Shown here one piece after another: positions 3,596-56,157 of a stretch of DNA of 59,152 nt (positions are counted from its first letter, which is position 1; every line of letters starts with the position of its first letter). Position numbers and translations under genes: made by a program. The notes beneath the pieces are model-generated. The model was given only the letters and a program-made list of their open reading frames with translations. It ran no database searches and had not been told where the DNA came from. The stretch lies in the NCBI GenBank assembly GCA_016938135.1, contig JAFGVD010000008.1, forward strand, positions 1 to 59,152, read 5' to 3'. The DNA is from Coriobacteriia bacterium. GTDB lineage: Bacteria; Actinomycetota; Coriobacteriia; Anaerosomatales; Anaerosomataceae.

Positions 3596-6150
3596 GCCGG
3601 GCCATCGAGGACATCCTCGCGCCCAAGCCCAACGCGCGGCCGCGCATCTATGCGTACTCGATCGATGATGAAGCGCACAGGGGTCTTCTGAAGGTCGGGC
3701 AGACCACGCGCGACGCGAAGCAACGCGTCGCTGACCAGTTGAAGACCGCCGCCATCAAGAACTACCGAATCGAGCTGGACGAATCCGCTGCACGCGACGA
3801 CGGGACTGTGTTCACCGATCACGAGGTGCGCGCAGCGCTTGTTCGGAAGGGATTCGAGAACGTCGAGTTGGAGTGGGTGCGATGCTCTGTTGCTGACGTG
3901 CGAACCGCGCTCGCTGAGCTGCGCACCGGCCAGCAGTTCGCCGGCACACATCACCAAACGTTCGCGATGCGGCGCGAGCAAGCTGCGGCTGTTGAGAAGA
4001 CGCACGCGTACTTCCACTCAATCTGGGCGGAGGACATGCATGCGGTGCCGCGTTTCTTGTGGAATGCGAAGATGCGCTTCGGTAAGACATTCACCGCGTA
4101 CCAGCTGGCTAAGAAGCTCGGCGCCAGGCGAGTACTGGTGGTGACTTTCAAGCCGGCAGTCGAAGACGCATGGCAGGCGGACCTTGAGAGTCACACGGAC
4201 TTCGACGGATGGCGGTACATGTCCCGTCATTCTGATCTAGACCCCAGCAAGATCGATCGCAGGACGCCCCTCGTGTACTTCGGCTCCTTCCAGGACCTTC
4301 TCGGCCGCGACGAGGCGGGCAACATCAAGCCCAAGAACGAATGGCTGCACAAGGTGGAGTGGGATCTCGTCGTCTTCGATGAGTACCACTTCGGTGCCTG
4401 GCGCGAGACCGCGAAGGAGTTGTTCGAGGGCGAGGATGATGCGGTCGCCAAGAGGGAGACCAAGCTCGAGTACACCCCGAGTCTTGAGGAGATGAACGAA
4501 GACCTCAGCGTCCTCTCTGAGAAGGAGACCGAGTTCCTTCCAATCACCACGAAGGCCTATCTCTACCTCTCCGGCACGCCGTTCAAGGCGCTGGCCACGG
4601 GCGAGTTCATCGAGGAGCAGATTTTCAACTGGACGTACACGGACGAACAGCGCGTGAAGGAGGAGTTCGCCTCGAAGCATCCCGGCGAATTGAACCCCTA
4701 CGGTGCGCTGCCGCAGATGCGTCTGCTCACGTATCAGATGCCCGACGAGCTGCTGGCGATCGCAAGCGCAGGCGAGTTCGATGAGTTCGACCTCAATGCG
4801 TTCTTTGCGGCCACCGGAGTTGGCAGGGACGCCCGATTCGAGCACAAAAGCGACGTGCAGAAGTGGCTCGACATCATCCGAGGTTCGTACGCGCCTCAGA
4901 TCGTCGACGCGCTGAAGACTGCGTCTCGGCCACCTTGGCCCTACTCGGACGTCCGCCTATTGCCCTACCTGCAGCACTCGTTCTGGTTCATGCCGAACGT
5001 CGCTGCCTGTCATGCGATGGCGAACTTGCTGGCTGAGAAGCACAACACGTTCTGGCATGACTACAAGGTGGTGGTCTCGGCGGGCGCTTCGGCTGGTATC
5101 GGCCTCGACGCCTTGCCGCCTGTGCGCTCAGCAATCGGTGGTGGATTCGATACGAAGACGATCACGCTATCGTGCGGTAAGCTCACGACTGGCGTGACGG
5201 TGCCGCAGTGGTCCTCCATCCTGATGCTCCGGAATCTCACGTCACCCGAGACGTACTTCCAAGCCGCGTTCCGTGTGCAATCGCCGTGGTCGATCAAGAA
5301 CCCTAACGGCGATGACCCGAACGAAGAGGAGATCCTCAAGCCCATCTGCTTCGTGTTCGACTTCGCCCCTACCCGGGCGCTGCGGCAGCTGAGTGAGTAT
5401 GGGCTCGGGCTCTCCCCGAGCGAGACGAATCCGGAGAATGCTGTCAAGGATCTCGTTTCGTTCCTGCCCGTGCTGGCCTACGACGGTGCCAACATGGTGC
5501 CCATCGATGCGGGGAGTATTCTCGACATCGCGATGGCAGGCACATCGGGCACACTTCTGGCGCGCAAGTGGGAGTCCGCTCTACTCGTGAACGTCGACAA
5601 CGACACCCTTCGACGCATCTTGGACAACCCGGAGGCGATGGCTGCGGTCGAGCGCATCGAGGGCTGGCGCGCCCTCGGCGACAATATCATCGAGACGATT
5701 ATCAACAAGAGCGACAAGGTCAAGGATCTCAAGGGAAAGGCCAAGGACGGCAAGTTGACCGCGAAGCAGAAGCGGGAACTCACTGCGGAAGAGAAGGAGT
5801 ACAAGTCCAAGCGCAAGCTGGTCCAGGAGAAGCTGATCAAGTTCGCCACGCGCATCCCCGCGTTCATGTACCTGACCGACTTCCGCGAGAACACGCTCCA
5901 AGACGTCATCACCAAGCTCGAACCGGACCTGTTCCTCGCTGTTACCGGTCTCACGGTGAAGGACTTCCACCTGCTCGTTCGCCTGAAGGTGTTCAACACG
6001 GAGCGCATGAATCAGGCTGTGTTCGCCTTCCGCCGCTACGAGGATGCATCTTTGCGCTATGCAGGCATCGACAGTCATCCGGGACTGACGCACTACGGAC
6101 TGTATGACACCGTGGTGGCCAGGGAAGAAGCGACTGACGCGTATCAGTAG
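3592..6150 (+). CDS. restriction protein: GIY-YIG-like nuclease fused to SF2 helicase
   Basis: 852 aa. The N-terminal 110 residues resemble the GIY-YIG/T5orf172 nuclease fold: IYAY at 19-22, KVGQT at 34-38, QRV just after, and a possible catalytic glutamate E78 in DHEVR. The rest is a superfamily 2 translocase: Walker A NAKMRFGKT (GKT at 164-166), DEYH box at 263-266, SGTPF at 327-331, and a helicase C domain with TTGVTVPQW and FRVQSPWS. A Lys-rich helical stretch lies near 705-745. The order MTase-MTase-nuclease/helicase implies an ATP-dependent restriction system akin to type III/ISP logic but with a GIY-YIG cleavage domain. The stop is 28 bases before the closing attC. Confidence 0.72.
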   Translation: MSRAIEDILAPKPNARPRIYAYSIDDEAHRGLLKVGQTTRDAKQRVADQLKTAAIKNYRIELDESAARDDGTVFTDHEVRAALVRKGFENVELEWVRCSVADVRTALAELRTGQQFAGTHHQTFAMRREQAAAVEKTHAYFHSIWAEDMHAVPRFLWNAKMRFGKTFTAYQLAKKLGARRVLVVTFKPAVEDAWQADLESHTDFDGWRYMSRHSDLDPSKIDRRTPLVYFGSFQDLLGRDEAGNIKPKNEWLHKVEWDLVVFDEYHFGAWRETAKELFEGEDDAVAKRETKLEYTPSLEEMNEDLSVLSEKETEFLPITTKAYLYLSGTPFKALATGEFIEEQIFNWTYTDEQRVKEEFASKHPGELNPYGALPQMRLLTYQMPDELLAIASAGEFDEFDLNAFFAATGVGRDARFEHKSDVQKWLDIIRGSYAPQIVDALKTASRPPWPYSDVRLLPYLQHSFWFMPNVAACHAMANLLAEKHNTFWHDYKVVVSAGASAGIGLDALPPVRSAIGGGFDTKTITLSCGKLTTGVTVPQWSSILMLRNLTSPETYFQAAFRVQSPWSIKNPNGDDPNEEEILKPICFVFDFAPTRALRQLSEYGLGLSPSETNPENAVKDLVSFLPVLAYDGANMVPIDAGSILDIAMAGTSGTLLARKWESALLVNVDNDTLRRILDNPEAMAAVERIEGWRALGDNIIETIINKSDKVKDLKGKAKDGKLTAKQKRELTAEEKEYKSKRKLVQEKLIKFATRIPAFMYLTDFRENTLQDVITKLEPDLFLAVTGLTVKDFHLLVRLKVFNTERMNQAVFAFRRYEDASLRYAGIDSHPGLTHYGLYDTVVAREEATDAYQ

Positions 6151-30931: not shown

Positions 30932-31413
30932 CAGTACTACGCATAGGAGTGCTCACAAGCTCGGACACGCGGGCGGCCGGAAAGGCCGAGGACACGTCCG
31001 GCAAAGCCATCATCGCTATCAGCGAGGCGCGGGGCTGGATCGTCTCGGCGTATCACGTGGTTCCTGACGACCAGGAGGCCATCGCCCGGGCGATTATCGA
31101 GATGTGCGACGTCGACGAGGTCGATGTCTTGCTCAGCACCGGAGGCACTGGACTCGGGCCGCGCGACATATGTCCGGAGACCACGCTGGCTCACGCCGAC
31201 CGCGAGGTCCCCGGTATCGCTGAGGCCATCAGGGCCGAGAGCATGCGGGTTACCAGTCGCGCGATGCTCTCACGCGGAGTCGCCGCTCAGCGCGGACGCA
31301 CGCTTATCATCAATCTGCCTGGTAGCGAGAAGGCCGTCCGGGAGTCGCTTGGTTTTGTGATCGACCAGCTGGAGCATGCGGTGGAGATGATCGCCGGTGG
31401 AGGCCATGGCTGA
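30928..31413 (+). CDS. mogA: molybdopterin adenylyltransferase (MogA/MoaB)
   Basis: 161 aa. It adenylylates molybdopterin before metal insertion by MoeA. Family motifs are GVLTSSDTRAAGKAEDTSG, LLSTGGTGLGPRDICPETT and INLPGSEKAVRESLGFVIDQLEHAVEMI. It overlaps the MOSC gene by 4 bases and the aminotransferase start by 17 bases. Confidence 0.92.
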   Translation: MTVLRIGVLTSSDTRAAGKAEDTSGKAIIAISEARGWIVSAYHVVPDDQEAIARAIIEMCDVDEVDVLLSTGGTGLGPRDICPETTLAHADREVPGIAEAIRAESMRVTSRAMLSRGVAAQRGRTLIINLPGSEKAVRESLGFVIDQLEHAVEMIAGGGHG

Positions 31414-32566
31414 GTCCGGTGCCCCGGCAACGGTGTACTTCGACCATGCGGCAACCTCTTGGCCCAAGCCTGACGCGGTCCTGGATGCGATGAGGGCCGC
31501 CATCCTCGACGCCGGCGGGAATCCGGGTCGGGGGGCGCATCGTCTCGCAGTAGCCGCATCCCGGACGATCCTTGAGGCCCGGGGTTCCGTCTCAAAGCTC
31601 CTGTGCGTCCCTGAGCCCCGTGACCTTGTCTTCACGGCCGGTTGTACCGAGGGGTTGAACCTGGCCATCAAAGGCCTGCTGCGGCCCGGTGACCGCGTGG
31701 TGGTCTCCTCCATGGAGCACAACGCTGTGGCGCGCCCGCTCAACATGCTCGCCGCCGCCGGGGTCATCGTGGATGTGGTCCGGGCCGACCAGTATGGTCG
31801 CATCGATGCGGATGTGCTCGAACGCGTGGTGGCGCAGTCCCGGACGCGAGCCGTGATTTGTCAGCATGCGTCCAATGTCACCGGCTCCATACAGCCTGTG
31901 GGTGACCTTGCCGACATCGCGCACGCCGCGGGTGCGCTGCTGATCGTGGACGGCGCGCAGGGTGCGGGCCATATGCGAGTGGATATCGGTGCTCTTGGCG
32001 CTGACGTCTACGCCAGCTCCGGACACAAGGGCCTTCTGGGTCCGCAGGGTGTGGGTGTGCTCTATCTCTCACCTGAGATCGAACCCGAAGAGCTCAAGCA
32101 GGGTGGCAGCGGCGGGAACTCCGAGGATCCCATGCAGCCCAGGTTGCGCCCGGACCGCTACGAGGCCGGCACGAGCAACACGCCCGGCATCGCCGGACTC
32201 GGGGCGGCCGCACGCTATCTCGCCCACAACGGTACTGGGATCATCAGACTCGAGCGTGATCTCACGGCCCGGATGTATGAGGGGCTTCTCGGCATTGATG
32301 GGTTGCGTGTGCTCGGGCCTCCGCCGGGCGAGGAGCGGGCGCCGGTCCTCTCGGTCGTGCATGAGCGCATAGAGTGCGACCGCATAGCGTTTGAACTCGA
32401 TCGCAACTACGGGATCGCGGTGCGCGCGGGGTTGCACTGCGCGCCATGGGCCCATGAAAGCGTGGGCACCCTGGAGTCGGGAGCTCTGCGCTTCGGTATA
32501 GGGTATGGGCTCACCGCTGAGGATGTGGACTTCGCTCTGGCGGCCATGAGGGCGATCTGCGGATGA
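31397..32566 (+). CDS. class V aminotransferase / cysteine desulfurase-like
   Basis: 389 aa PLP enzyme. YFDHAATSWPKPDAVLDAMRAAI starts the fold, HNAVARPLN lies mid-chain, VDGAQGAGHMRVDIGALGADVYASSGHKGLLGPQGVGVL holds the PLP-Lys (SSGHK), and LHCAPWAHESVG carries a cysteine in the position of the desulfurase catalytic Cys. It probably mobilises sulfur (or selenium) from cysteine (or selenocysteine). Its pairing with a DUF3343 gene is known from selenium-metabolism neighbourhoods, so it may feed S/Se to the cofactor or to selenium carriers. Confidence 0.85.
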   Translation: MEAMAESGAPATVYFDHAATSWPKPDAVLDAMRAAILDAGGNPGRGAHRLAVAASRTILEARGSVSKLLCVPEPRDLVFTAGCTEGLNLAIKGLLRPGDRVVVSSMEHNAVARPLNMLAAAGVIVDVVRADQYGRIDADVLERVVAQSRTRAVICQHASNVTGSIQPVGDLADIAHAAGALLIVDGAQGAGHMRVDIGALGADVYASSGHKGLLGPQGVGVLYLSPEIEPEELKQGGSGGNSEDPMQPRLRPDRYEAGTSNTPGIAGLGAAARYLAHNGTGIIRLERDLTARMYEGLLGIDGLRVLGPPPGEERAPVLSVVHERIECDRIAFELDRNYGIAVRAGLHCAPWAHESVGTLESGALRFGIGYGLTAEDVDFALAAMRAICG

Positions 32567-32808
32567 GCTCGCCTCAACGGCGTCCGTACGTGGTGTTCGG
32601 GTTCGCTTCGACGCATGACGCGCTCAGCGGCGAAGCGGCGCTGGTCGCGGCGGGGCTTCAGCTCACCGTGATGCCTACTCCTAAGACGCTTGGCGCGCTG
32701 TGCGGCATCGCGCTGCGACTTGCCGAGGAGGATGTGTCTTTGGCCGAGGAGACCCTTACGCGCGCTGGCGTCGCGTGGTCCGGACAGGTGCGGATTCTCG
32801 ACCGCTAA
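32563..32808 (+). CDS. DUF3343 putative Se/S carrier protein
   Basis: 81 aa. The pattern VVFGFASTHDALSGEAALVAAGLQLTVMPTPKTLGALCGIALRL is DUF3343, whose members carry one conserved Cys (here in ALCGIAL) and accompany class V aminotransferases and YedF-like proteins. It is proposed to be a sulfur or selenium carrier. It overlaps the preceding gene by 4 bases. Last gene of the operon; it runs tail to tail into an L,D-transpeptidase. Confidence 0.8.
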   Translation: MSSPQRRPYVVFGFASTHDALSGEAALVAAGLQLTVMPTPKTLGALCGIALRLAEEDVSLAEETLTRAGVAWSGQVRILDR

Positions 32809-55560: not shown

Positions 55561-55590
55561 AAAAAGGCCGGGGAAGCCCCGGCCTTTCTG
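55561..55590. terminator. bidirectional intrinsic terminator
   Basis: GGCCGGGG (55566-55573), loop AAG, CCCCGGCC (55577-55584), with A6 before and TTTCT after. It serves both the J-protein gene and the convergent selenoprotein gene on the minus strand. Confidence 0.88.
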
Positions 55591-55609: not shown

Positions 55610-55951
55610 TCAGCTTGGGTTCAGCAGCCGTGATTGAACCGCGCGAAGGATCGCAGGGTACGATACAGCGCCATCGTATACCGGATCACCGTCAATGAAG
55701 GTGACCGGATAGACGAGGCCGTCATCTTGTATGCGGGTCACTTCCGTGGGGTGCTGGGCTATGACTTCAGGCTTGCTGGTGTCGTGGTACAGGATGCTTG
55801 CCGCATCGCCGAACCGATTGAGCATCTCTGTGCGGACGATGGCTGTGATCTCCTCCGGAGACCAGCTCGGGCCTCATCCACCGCCAAAGCATGCCGTCTC
55901 TGCAGGGAAGTCGAATACCTCGACGGTGACTTTGATTGTTTGTTCCTCCAT
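55610..55951 (-). CDS. probable selenoprotein with in-frame UGA (Sec26)
   Basis: 113 aa if the TGA at 55874-55876 is read as selenocysteine. The frame is open on both sides of the TGA: residues 1-25 end in ETACFGGG, and the frame resumes GPSWSPEEITAIVRTEMLNRFGD through to residue 113. The redox site would be C21-x4-U26. The ATG at 55951 has GAGGAG seven bases upstream. The 19 bases from +10 to +28 after the UGA form an 8-bp stem with a GGA loop (TGGTCTCC-GGA-GGAGATCA), matching the size and apical G of bacterial SECIS elements. Twelve bases upstream on the same strand is a ferredoxin gene. Without recoding, only the stretch from M43 would be translated, with no ribosome site before it. Confidence 0.75.
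55846..55864 (-). ncRNA. candidate SECIS stem-loop
   Basis: Eight base pairs (one G.U) and a three-base GGA loop lie +10 to +28 after the in-frame UGA, so the apical G is at +18/+19, inside the 16-37 range known for bacterial SECIS elements. The stem is in coding sequence, as bacterial SECIS elements are. Confidence 0.62.
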
Positions 55952-55962
55952 TGATACGCTCC

Positions 55963-56157
55963 TCAGCCGAGATGAATGGCGCCGCCTGCACACACCCTCG
56001 TGCAGATCCCGCAGCCAGTACAGCGATCCTCATCGATCGAATACCCATTTGCACCAGGATACCTCCCGCCGGGAACCGGTGTAATAGCCCCCTTTGGACA
56101 TACACGCTTCGCCGGGCACCCCGGTGAGCGATCGCAAGCGCCGTTGTCGATATTCAT
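55963..56157 (-). CDS. small 4Fe-4S ferredoxin
   Basis: 64 aa from ATG. The C-terminal cluster is CTGCGICTRVCAGGAI, a normal 4Fe-4S site. The N-terminal cysteines (ACDRSPGCPAKRVCPKGAI) provide another set with wider spacing, so it may hold one regular and one atypical cluster. A TTG start at 56214 would overlap the -10 box and is unlikely. It is 11 bases upstream of the selenoprotein start, so both are one transcript. The pair suggests a ferredoxin passing electrons to a selenol-based redox protein. Confidence 0.8.
   Translation of the reverse strand: MNIDNGACDRSPGCPAKRVCPKGAITPVPGGRYPGANGYSIDEDRCTGCGICTRVCAGGAIHLG

Follow-up and report, generated by a model that had tools for sequence, protein, structure and literature searches.

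A thioredoxin-fold protein of the DUF1462/ArsD group, encoded next to a ferredoxin gene in Coriobacteriia, is very probably a selenoprotein of a previously unlisted family

The window analyzed here, a stretch of 59,152 nucleotides from a Coriobacteriia bacterium (contig JAFGVD010000008.1), contains a gene that, judging from comparative sequence data, very probably encodes a 113-residue, thioredoxin-fold selenoprotein in which UGA codon 26 specifies selenocysteine (Sec). The gene occupies positions 55610–55951 on the minus strand, which the initial annotation had left unstated, and with TGA read as U its reading frame runs from the ATG at 55951 to 55613, followed by its own TGA stop (55612–55610), to give the product MEEQTIKVTVEVFDFPAETACFGGGUGPSWSPEEITAIVRTEMLNRFGDAASILYHDTSKPEVIAQHPTEVTRIQDDGLVYPVTFIDGDPVYDGAVSYPAILRAVQSRLLNPS. 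The internal UGA codon (55874–55876) is preceded by the codon for Cys21 (55889–55891), the putative partner of Sec26 in a C-x4-U motif. The in-frame TGA in a small gene, and the Shine-Dalgarno sequence and ATG ahead of it, had been pointed out in the initial annotation; the Shine-Dalgarno sequence, GAGGAG, is read from the sequence at 55964–55959, 7 nt ahead of the ATG, and a purine-rich site precedes the start in nearly all orthologues. Also as anticipated, ordinary open reading frame calling without recoding returns a truncated 71-aa product with an ATG of its own (55825–55610), selenoprotein genes being often mis-annotated in this way.

When 199 genomes close to the source genome were searched at the protein level, 63 Coriobacteriia genomes, the window counted, proved to contain a homologue; within the order, the gene is present in 61 of 69 genomes. 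Relatives of the class for which names are available are Coriobacteriia and Anaerosomatales metagenome-assembled genomes and Coriobacteriaceae bacterium EMTCatB1. All 63 orthologues carry TGA at the same codon, without a single instance of Cys, of any other sense codon or of a stop other than TGA, at protein identities as low as approximately 30%. In one orthologue (G062), a second TGA is the real stop. Two weak matches in the class search have no internal stop, and the one that was read out (L065) is a true ArsD. Twelve positions are invariant among the 62 aligned sequences, namely D14, C21, G25, U26, G27, P28, W30, E34, E42, Y55, P82 and G94. The pN/pS ratio is 0.37 before the UGA and 0.46 after it, and since both parts are under purifying selection, one protein appears to be made across the UGA. 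Among the observations that the initial annotation had named as speaking against recoding were homologues with a stop or a sense codon other than Cys at this position, and a lack of conservation in the first 25 codons. Neither was found: close relatives have UGA and the distant ArsD and DUF1462 proteins Cys, and the first 25 codons include the invariant D14 and C21; the GPSWSPEE stretch, which it had called conserved-looking, includes the invariant G27, P28, W30 and E34. As a separate observation, the Gly codon immediately 5' of the UGA (55877–55879 in the window) is GGT in 49, GGA in 10, GGC in 4 and GGG in none of the 63 orthologues, and the Gly codon one position earlier is mostly GGC; the GGT bias thus appears to be a context preference 5' of the recoded UGA.

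The UGA is followed by a hairpin of the bacterial SECIS (bSECIS) type, UGGUCUCC-GGA-GGAGAUCA (55864–55846, minus strand), which begins 9 nt 3' of the UGA and consists of an 8-bp stem capped by a GGA loop (55856–55854) located 17 nt 3' of the UGA, with the first 2 loop Gs at +18/+19, the position given in the initial annotation. Published limits for bSECIS elements are a loop of 3–9 nt, a stem of 4–16 bp, a G in the first 2 loop positions, a spacing of 16–37 nt and a minimum free energy of −7.5 kcal/mol or lower (PMC13188914), and the window hairpin, with a 3-nt loop, 8 bp, 17 nt and −9.3 kcal/mol when folded alone (z −3.1), falls within all of them. Taken as a single sequence, the signal is modestly beyond chance, with an 8-pair stem arising in 3.6% of synonymous resamplings; folding of a 42-nt window gave no significant z-score because rival G+C-rich pairings compete, and an Rfam scan of the region returned sub-threshold chance matches and no SECIS family. 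The comparative signal is far stronger. Codons +5 to +9 (TCT CCG GAG GAG ATC) correspond exactly to the hairpin and have synonymous entropies between 0 and 0.12 bits across the 63 genomes, whereas codons +1 to +3 and those from +10 on change freely at synonymous sites, six-fold Ser codons and four-fold Gly, Pro and Thr codons among them; mean pS is 0.158 over the hairpin versus 0.621 before and 0.566 after it. A set of 54 distinct hairpins drawn from across the phylum has pairing in 98.1% of cells and a stem covariation score of 0.270, compared with at most 0.087 for slid partners. The closing pair occurs as C-G, A-U, U-A, G-C and G-U and the second pair as G-C and U-A, with repeated double changes at both (C-G to A-U, U-A or G-C at the closing pair, G-C to U-A at the second). 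Outside the class, the hairpin register was set by the core motif UCUC-x-GG-xx-GAGA, which biases the core but not the covarying pairs. Given the synonymous freeze and the covariation, the hairpin is far more than a chance structure. When the source genome was scanned for further copies of the UGA-hairpin motif, the only exact match was the gene itself, and matches with 2 mismatches numbered 55 versus 26 in backwards controls.

In the source genome, a 4.9-kb stretch (G000:C49:42754-47608) encodes, in this order, selD, selA, selB and tRNA-Sec (selC; anticodon UCA), so that all 4 genes for which the initial annotation advised a search are present in a single cluster; selD itself contains a UGA, at the GUxxK site where it is usually found. 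Among the 69 genomes of the order, selA and the gene occur together in 50 and are both absent from 4; a further 4 have selA only, and 11 have the gene without detected selA. One of the 4 genomes with neither, G040, is 99% complete and also lacks selB and selD, which speaks for the recoding. Within the group of 11, selB was found in G029 and G036 and UGA-containing selD in G010, G014, G025 and G036, yet in G045 (96% complete) the gene is present and selA, selB and selD all escaped detection. These 11 genomes count against the selenoprotein reading, but the sel genes missing from them presumably fall into gaps in draft assemblies. The window further contains, side by side on the plus strand, the class V aminotransferase (cysteine desulfurase-like; 31397–32566; PF00266, 292.7 bits) and DUF3343 genes that the initial annotation had considered fitting for a selenium user, the latter encoding a putative Se/S carrier (Se_S_carrier; 32563–32808; PF11823, 57.5 bits). 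The 2 genes overlap and are likely to form a selenium or sulfur delivery pair; molybdenum-cofactor-like genes lie upstream.

The predicted structure of the product is a thioredoxin fold (pLDDT 88.7, falling to approximately 58 in the motif loop, residues 21–30, of the AlphaFold model). Its best match in the PDB is 1xg8 (VIA Z 9.0, rmsd 3.6, 101 residues), the Staphylococcus aureus protein SA0798/SA0789 of the DUF1462 family (PF07315, YuzD-like), followed by the ArsD structures 3ktb, 3mwh and 3kgk (Z 8.3–8.7); ordinary thioredoxins score close to these (Z near 8), so the fold alone singles out no function. The class profile matches 1xg8 with an E-value of 1.4e-6, placing Cys22 of the latter in the column of U26. 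Every one of the 62 members matches PF07315 (E ≤0.1); the window protein scores 24.1 bits, against a gathering cut-off of 25 bits, and the relative L063 exceeds that cut-off with 32.4 bits. The window protein shares the thioredoxin-like fold with DUF1462 but has Sec in place of Cys, and its C-x4-U motif is not the Cys arrangement of 1xg8. Alignment with 2 ArsD sequences (PF06953, NF033727) using hhalign (95.7%, E 9.6e-9) places U26 on Cys18, C21 on Cys13 and A20 on Cys12 in Escherichia coli ArsD numbering. Shared with ArsD are the fold, the C-x4-C/U spacing, the GPS-xxP loop and the positions of Cys13 and Cys18, but Cys12 is replaced by Ala20, a position that varies in the family, and Cys18 by Sec, and the window protein scores below the ArsD cut-offs (13.4 against 90 bits for NF033727 and 14.6 against 27 bits for PF06953). 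DUF1462 and ArsD have been grouped earlier in a thioredoxin-like clan (PMC3091736). Collectively, the profile matches and the predicted fold assign the product to the DUF1462/ArsD group, and the invariance of Cys21 and Sec26 together with their alignment to Cys13 and Cys18 of ArsD suggests that these 2 residues form the active pair. One ArsD, from G048, came up as a candidate with an internal TGA and was rejected as a selenoprotein, being an ordinary Cys-containing ArsD whose TGA is the C-terminal stop.

Searching with a profile built from the class alignment gave matches in 21 further genomes outside the class but within the same phylum, 20 of which have an in-frame TGA within the match. The UGA regions read SCSGGUGPSWSLEEIT in family f41, SSCGFGUGSYGLSQAEI in f39, ACRGGGUAPPLSLEET in f47 and VCSGGGUGTVSWSRAEI in f91, and the members that were read out have a hairpin of the same kind. 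Searches of viral contigs produced no relatives. At locus L159 (approximately 4400–4900), arsD-arsA-arsA are followed immediately by a DUF1462-like frame that contains an in-frame TGA (GAGGUGPVCEPADCGPAQTM), with genes for an FmdB-like zinc ribbon protein and a permease downstream; this frame is possibly a selenoprotein within an arsenic operon. In f41 (loci L150–L154), the member is found approximately 100–200 nt 3' of a gene whose PP-loop (thiouridylase/ThiI-like) product has a CTCTAKSSC motif conserved in f41, an arrangement that hints at a link to sulfur or selenium transfer.

In the window, the selenoprotein gene is preceded on the same strand by a gene for a 64-aa ferredoxin with 7 cysteines (55963–56157; Pfam Fer4_7, 33.4 bits), at a distance of 11 nt from the start of the selenoprotein. 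A ferredoxin gene is located directly upstream, ending approximately 10 nt before the selenoprotein start, in 51 of the 63 class loci. The conserved cysteines are arranged as C8-x5-C14-x5-C20-P and C46-x2-C49-x2-C52-x3-C56; by their order, we take them to resemble those of seven-iron ferredoxins, although the C-x5-C-x5-CP spacing differs from that type. In seven-iron ferredoxins, one cluster has just 3 Cys ligands, and the pattern sought was a first cluster with 3 Cys and a second with CxxCxxC plus CP. A rho-independent terminator with a 13-bp stem and a T tail (55561–55589, minus strand) closes what, from the gene order, is a two-gene unit that is presumably co-transcribed. The flanking genes for MCP, DnaJ-domain and penicillin-binding proteins are likewise conserved in the class loci, and the ferredoxin linkage inside the order could therefore partly reflect inherited gene order. 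In family f7 the same flanks are kept and the ferredoxin gene is missing, f17 relatives also lack it, and none was seen beside members outside the class in the loci read; thus, the ferredoxin cannot be a partner that all members of the family require.

The most likely role of the protein, which we hold with about even confidence, is that of a ferredoxin-linked selenol/thiol reductase. UGA26 is very probably decoded as Sec by the SelD, SelA, SelB and tRNA-Sec of the source genome, directed by the hairpin. Sec26 would then attack or reduce a substrate bond, whether a disulfide, a polysulfide, a peroxide or an oxidized metal(loid) or selenium species, and form a selenenylsulfide with Cys21, which would be re-reduced by electrons from the ferredoxin, by analogy with ferredoxin-driven thioredoxin systems. 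The C-x4-U spacing is, however, wider than the CxxC typical of redox proteins, which counts against such a mechanism.

The main rival reading, possible but distinctly less favored, is that of an ArsD-like selenoprotein in which Cys21 and Sec26 bind and hand on a soft metal(loid) or a Se/S species. ArsD is the closest alignable family of known function, with Cys18 and Cys13 beneath U26 and C21, and As(III) is carried by its Cys12, Cys13 and Cys18 (PMC12607644); moreover, tblastn searches of plasmids returned only ArsD, the distant UGA-bearing L159 frame is situated in an arsD-arsA-arsA operon, and f41 members follow a gene that, by sequence, encodes a sulfurtransferase-like PP-loop protein. On the other hand, the position of Cys12 is Ala20 here and variable in the family, no ars genes were seen beside members of the order, and the source genome has neither an ArsD nor a true ArsA, with only short P-loop matches of 22–26 bits, which counts against plain arsenic chaperoning; ArsD was found in only 3 of 71 genomes searched. 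A further, tentative reading is that the family is a selenoprotein-only branch of the ArsD/DUF1462 group, practically without Cys orthologues, in which the ferredoxin, through an open-site cluster with 3 Cys ligands, either reduces the Cys-x4-Sec site or supplies it with a metal or selenium species. If true, anaerobic actinobacteria would possess a new selenoenzyme system driven by ferredoxin.

Other readings of the UGA fare far worse. Its translation as another amino acid, through reassignment to Trp or Gly or through leaky readthrough, would look the same at the protein level, with a conserved UGA and conserved flanks, but is highly improbable in view of the complete sel cluster, the SECIS-type hairpin and the Cys at that column in ArsD and 1xg8; furthermore, TGA is also the terminal stop of the selenoprotein gene, both here and in many relatives, so UGA serves as a stop in this genome. 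An ordinary stop, with a pseudogene or 2 short frames and a chance hairpin, draws on the modest single-sequence hairpin signal and the separate ATG of the 71-aa frame, but is refuted by the comparative data, namely the TGA, never TAA or TAG, in 63/63 orthologues, purifying selection on both halves, codons frozen exactly at the hairpin and a covarying stem.

As far as could be tested, the Sec variant of the DUF1462/ArsD group has not been listed before and constitutes a new selenoprotein family. None of the NCBIfam models of June 2026 fits any branch, and the 119 selenoprotein families cataloged in 2026 include none that is based on DUF1462 or ArsD and none with C-x4-U or C-x3-U (PMC13188914); the thioredoxin-like bacterial selenoproteins in that catalog likewise combine Sec with Cys and have the bSECIS inside the coding region (PMC13188914, Table 1). 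The families of Haft and Tolstoy (2025), as represented by NCBIfam models and the list in a review, gave no match. In the literature, of which coverage is incomplete, full texts contained nothing on a DUF1462 selenoprotein or CxxxxU, titles and abstracts nothing relevant on ArsD with selenocysteine, and the description of Anaerosomatales does not mention selenoproteins. The suggestion in the initial annotation that the selenoprotein may be undescribed is therefore supported; it missed the relationship to ArsD/DUF1462 and the ferredoxin operon. Nearly all known selenoproteins have Cys-containing homologues (PMC13188914). Within the order, Sec is retained and never replaced by Cys, and it thus seems indispensable to the job of the protein. 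With members in 61 of 69 genomes, the family is almost ubiquitous in one order, and it extends to other classes of the phylum; it also helps to explain why these small-genome anaerobes retain the costly Sec machinery. Since Sec is placed where ArsD carries arsenic, usually beside a ferredoxin, the contribution of Sec to metal(loid) or low-potential redox chemistry can be tested directly in this family.

Two loci of f39, L160 and L161 (G354:C19 and G244:C25), encode second DUF1462 members in which the TGA is located earlier in the chain (VVYTTVPSGURSC and VVYSTLPSGUSSSG...), that of L161 scoring 30.3 bits against PF07315, above the cut-off; these are possibly another, UxxC-type, selenoprotein of the DUF1462 domain family. 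In several of the f39 loci L142–L149, an uncharacterized, coiled-coil-looking protein of approximately 100 aa ends approximately 30 nt upstream of the member.
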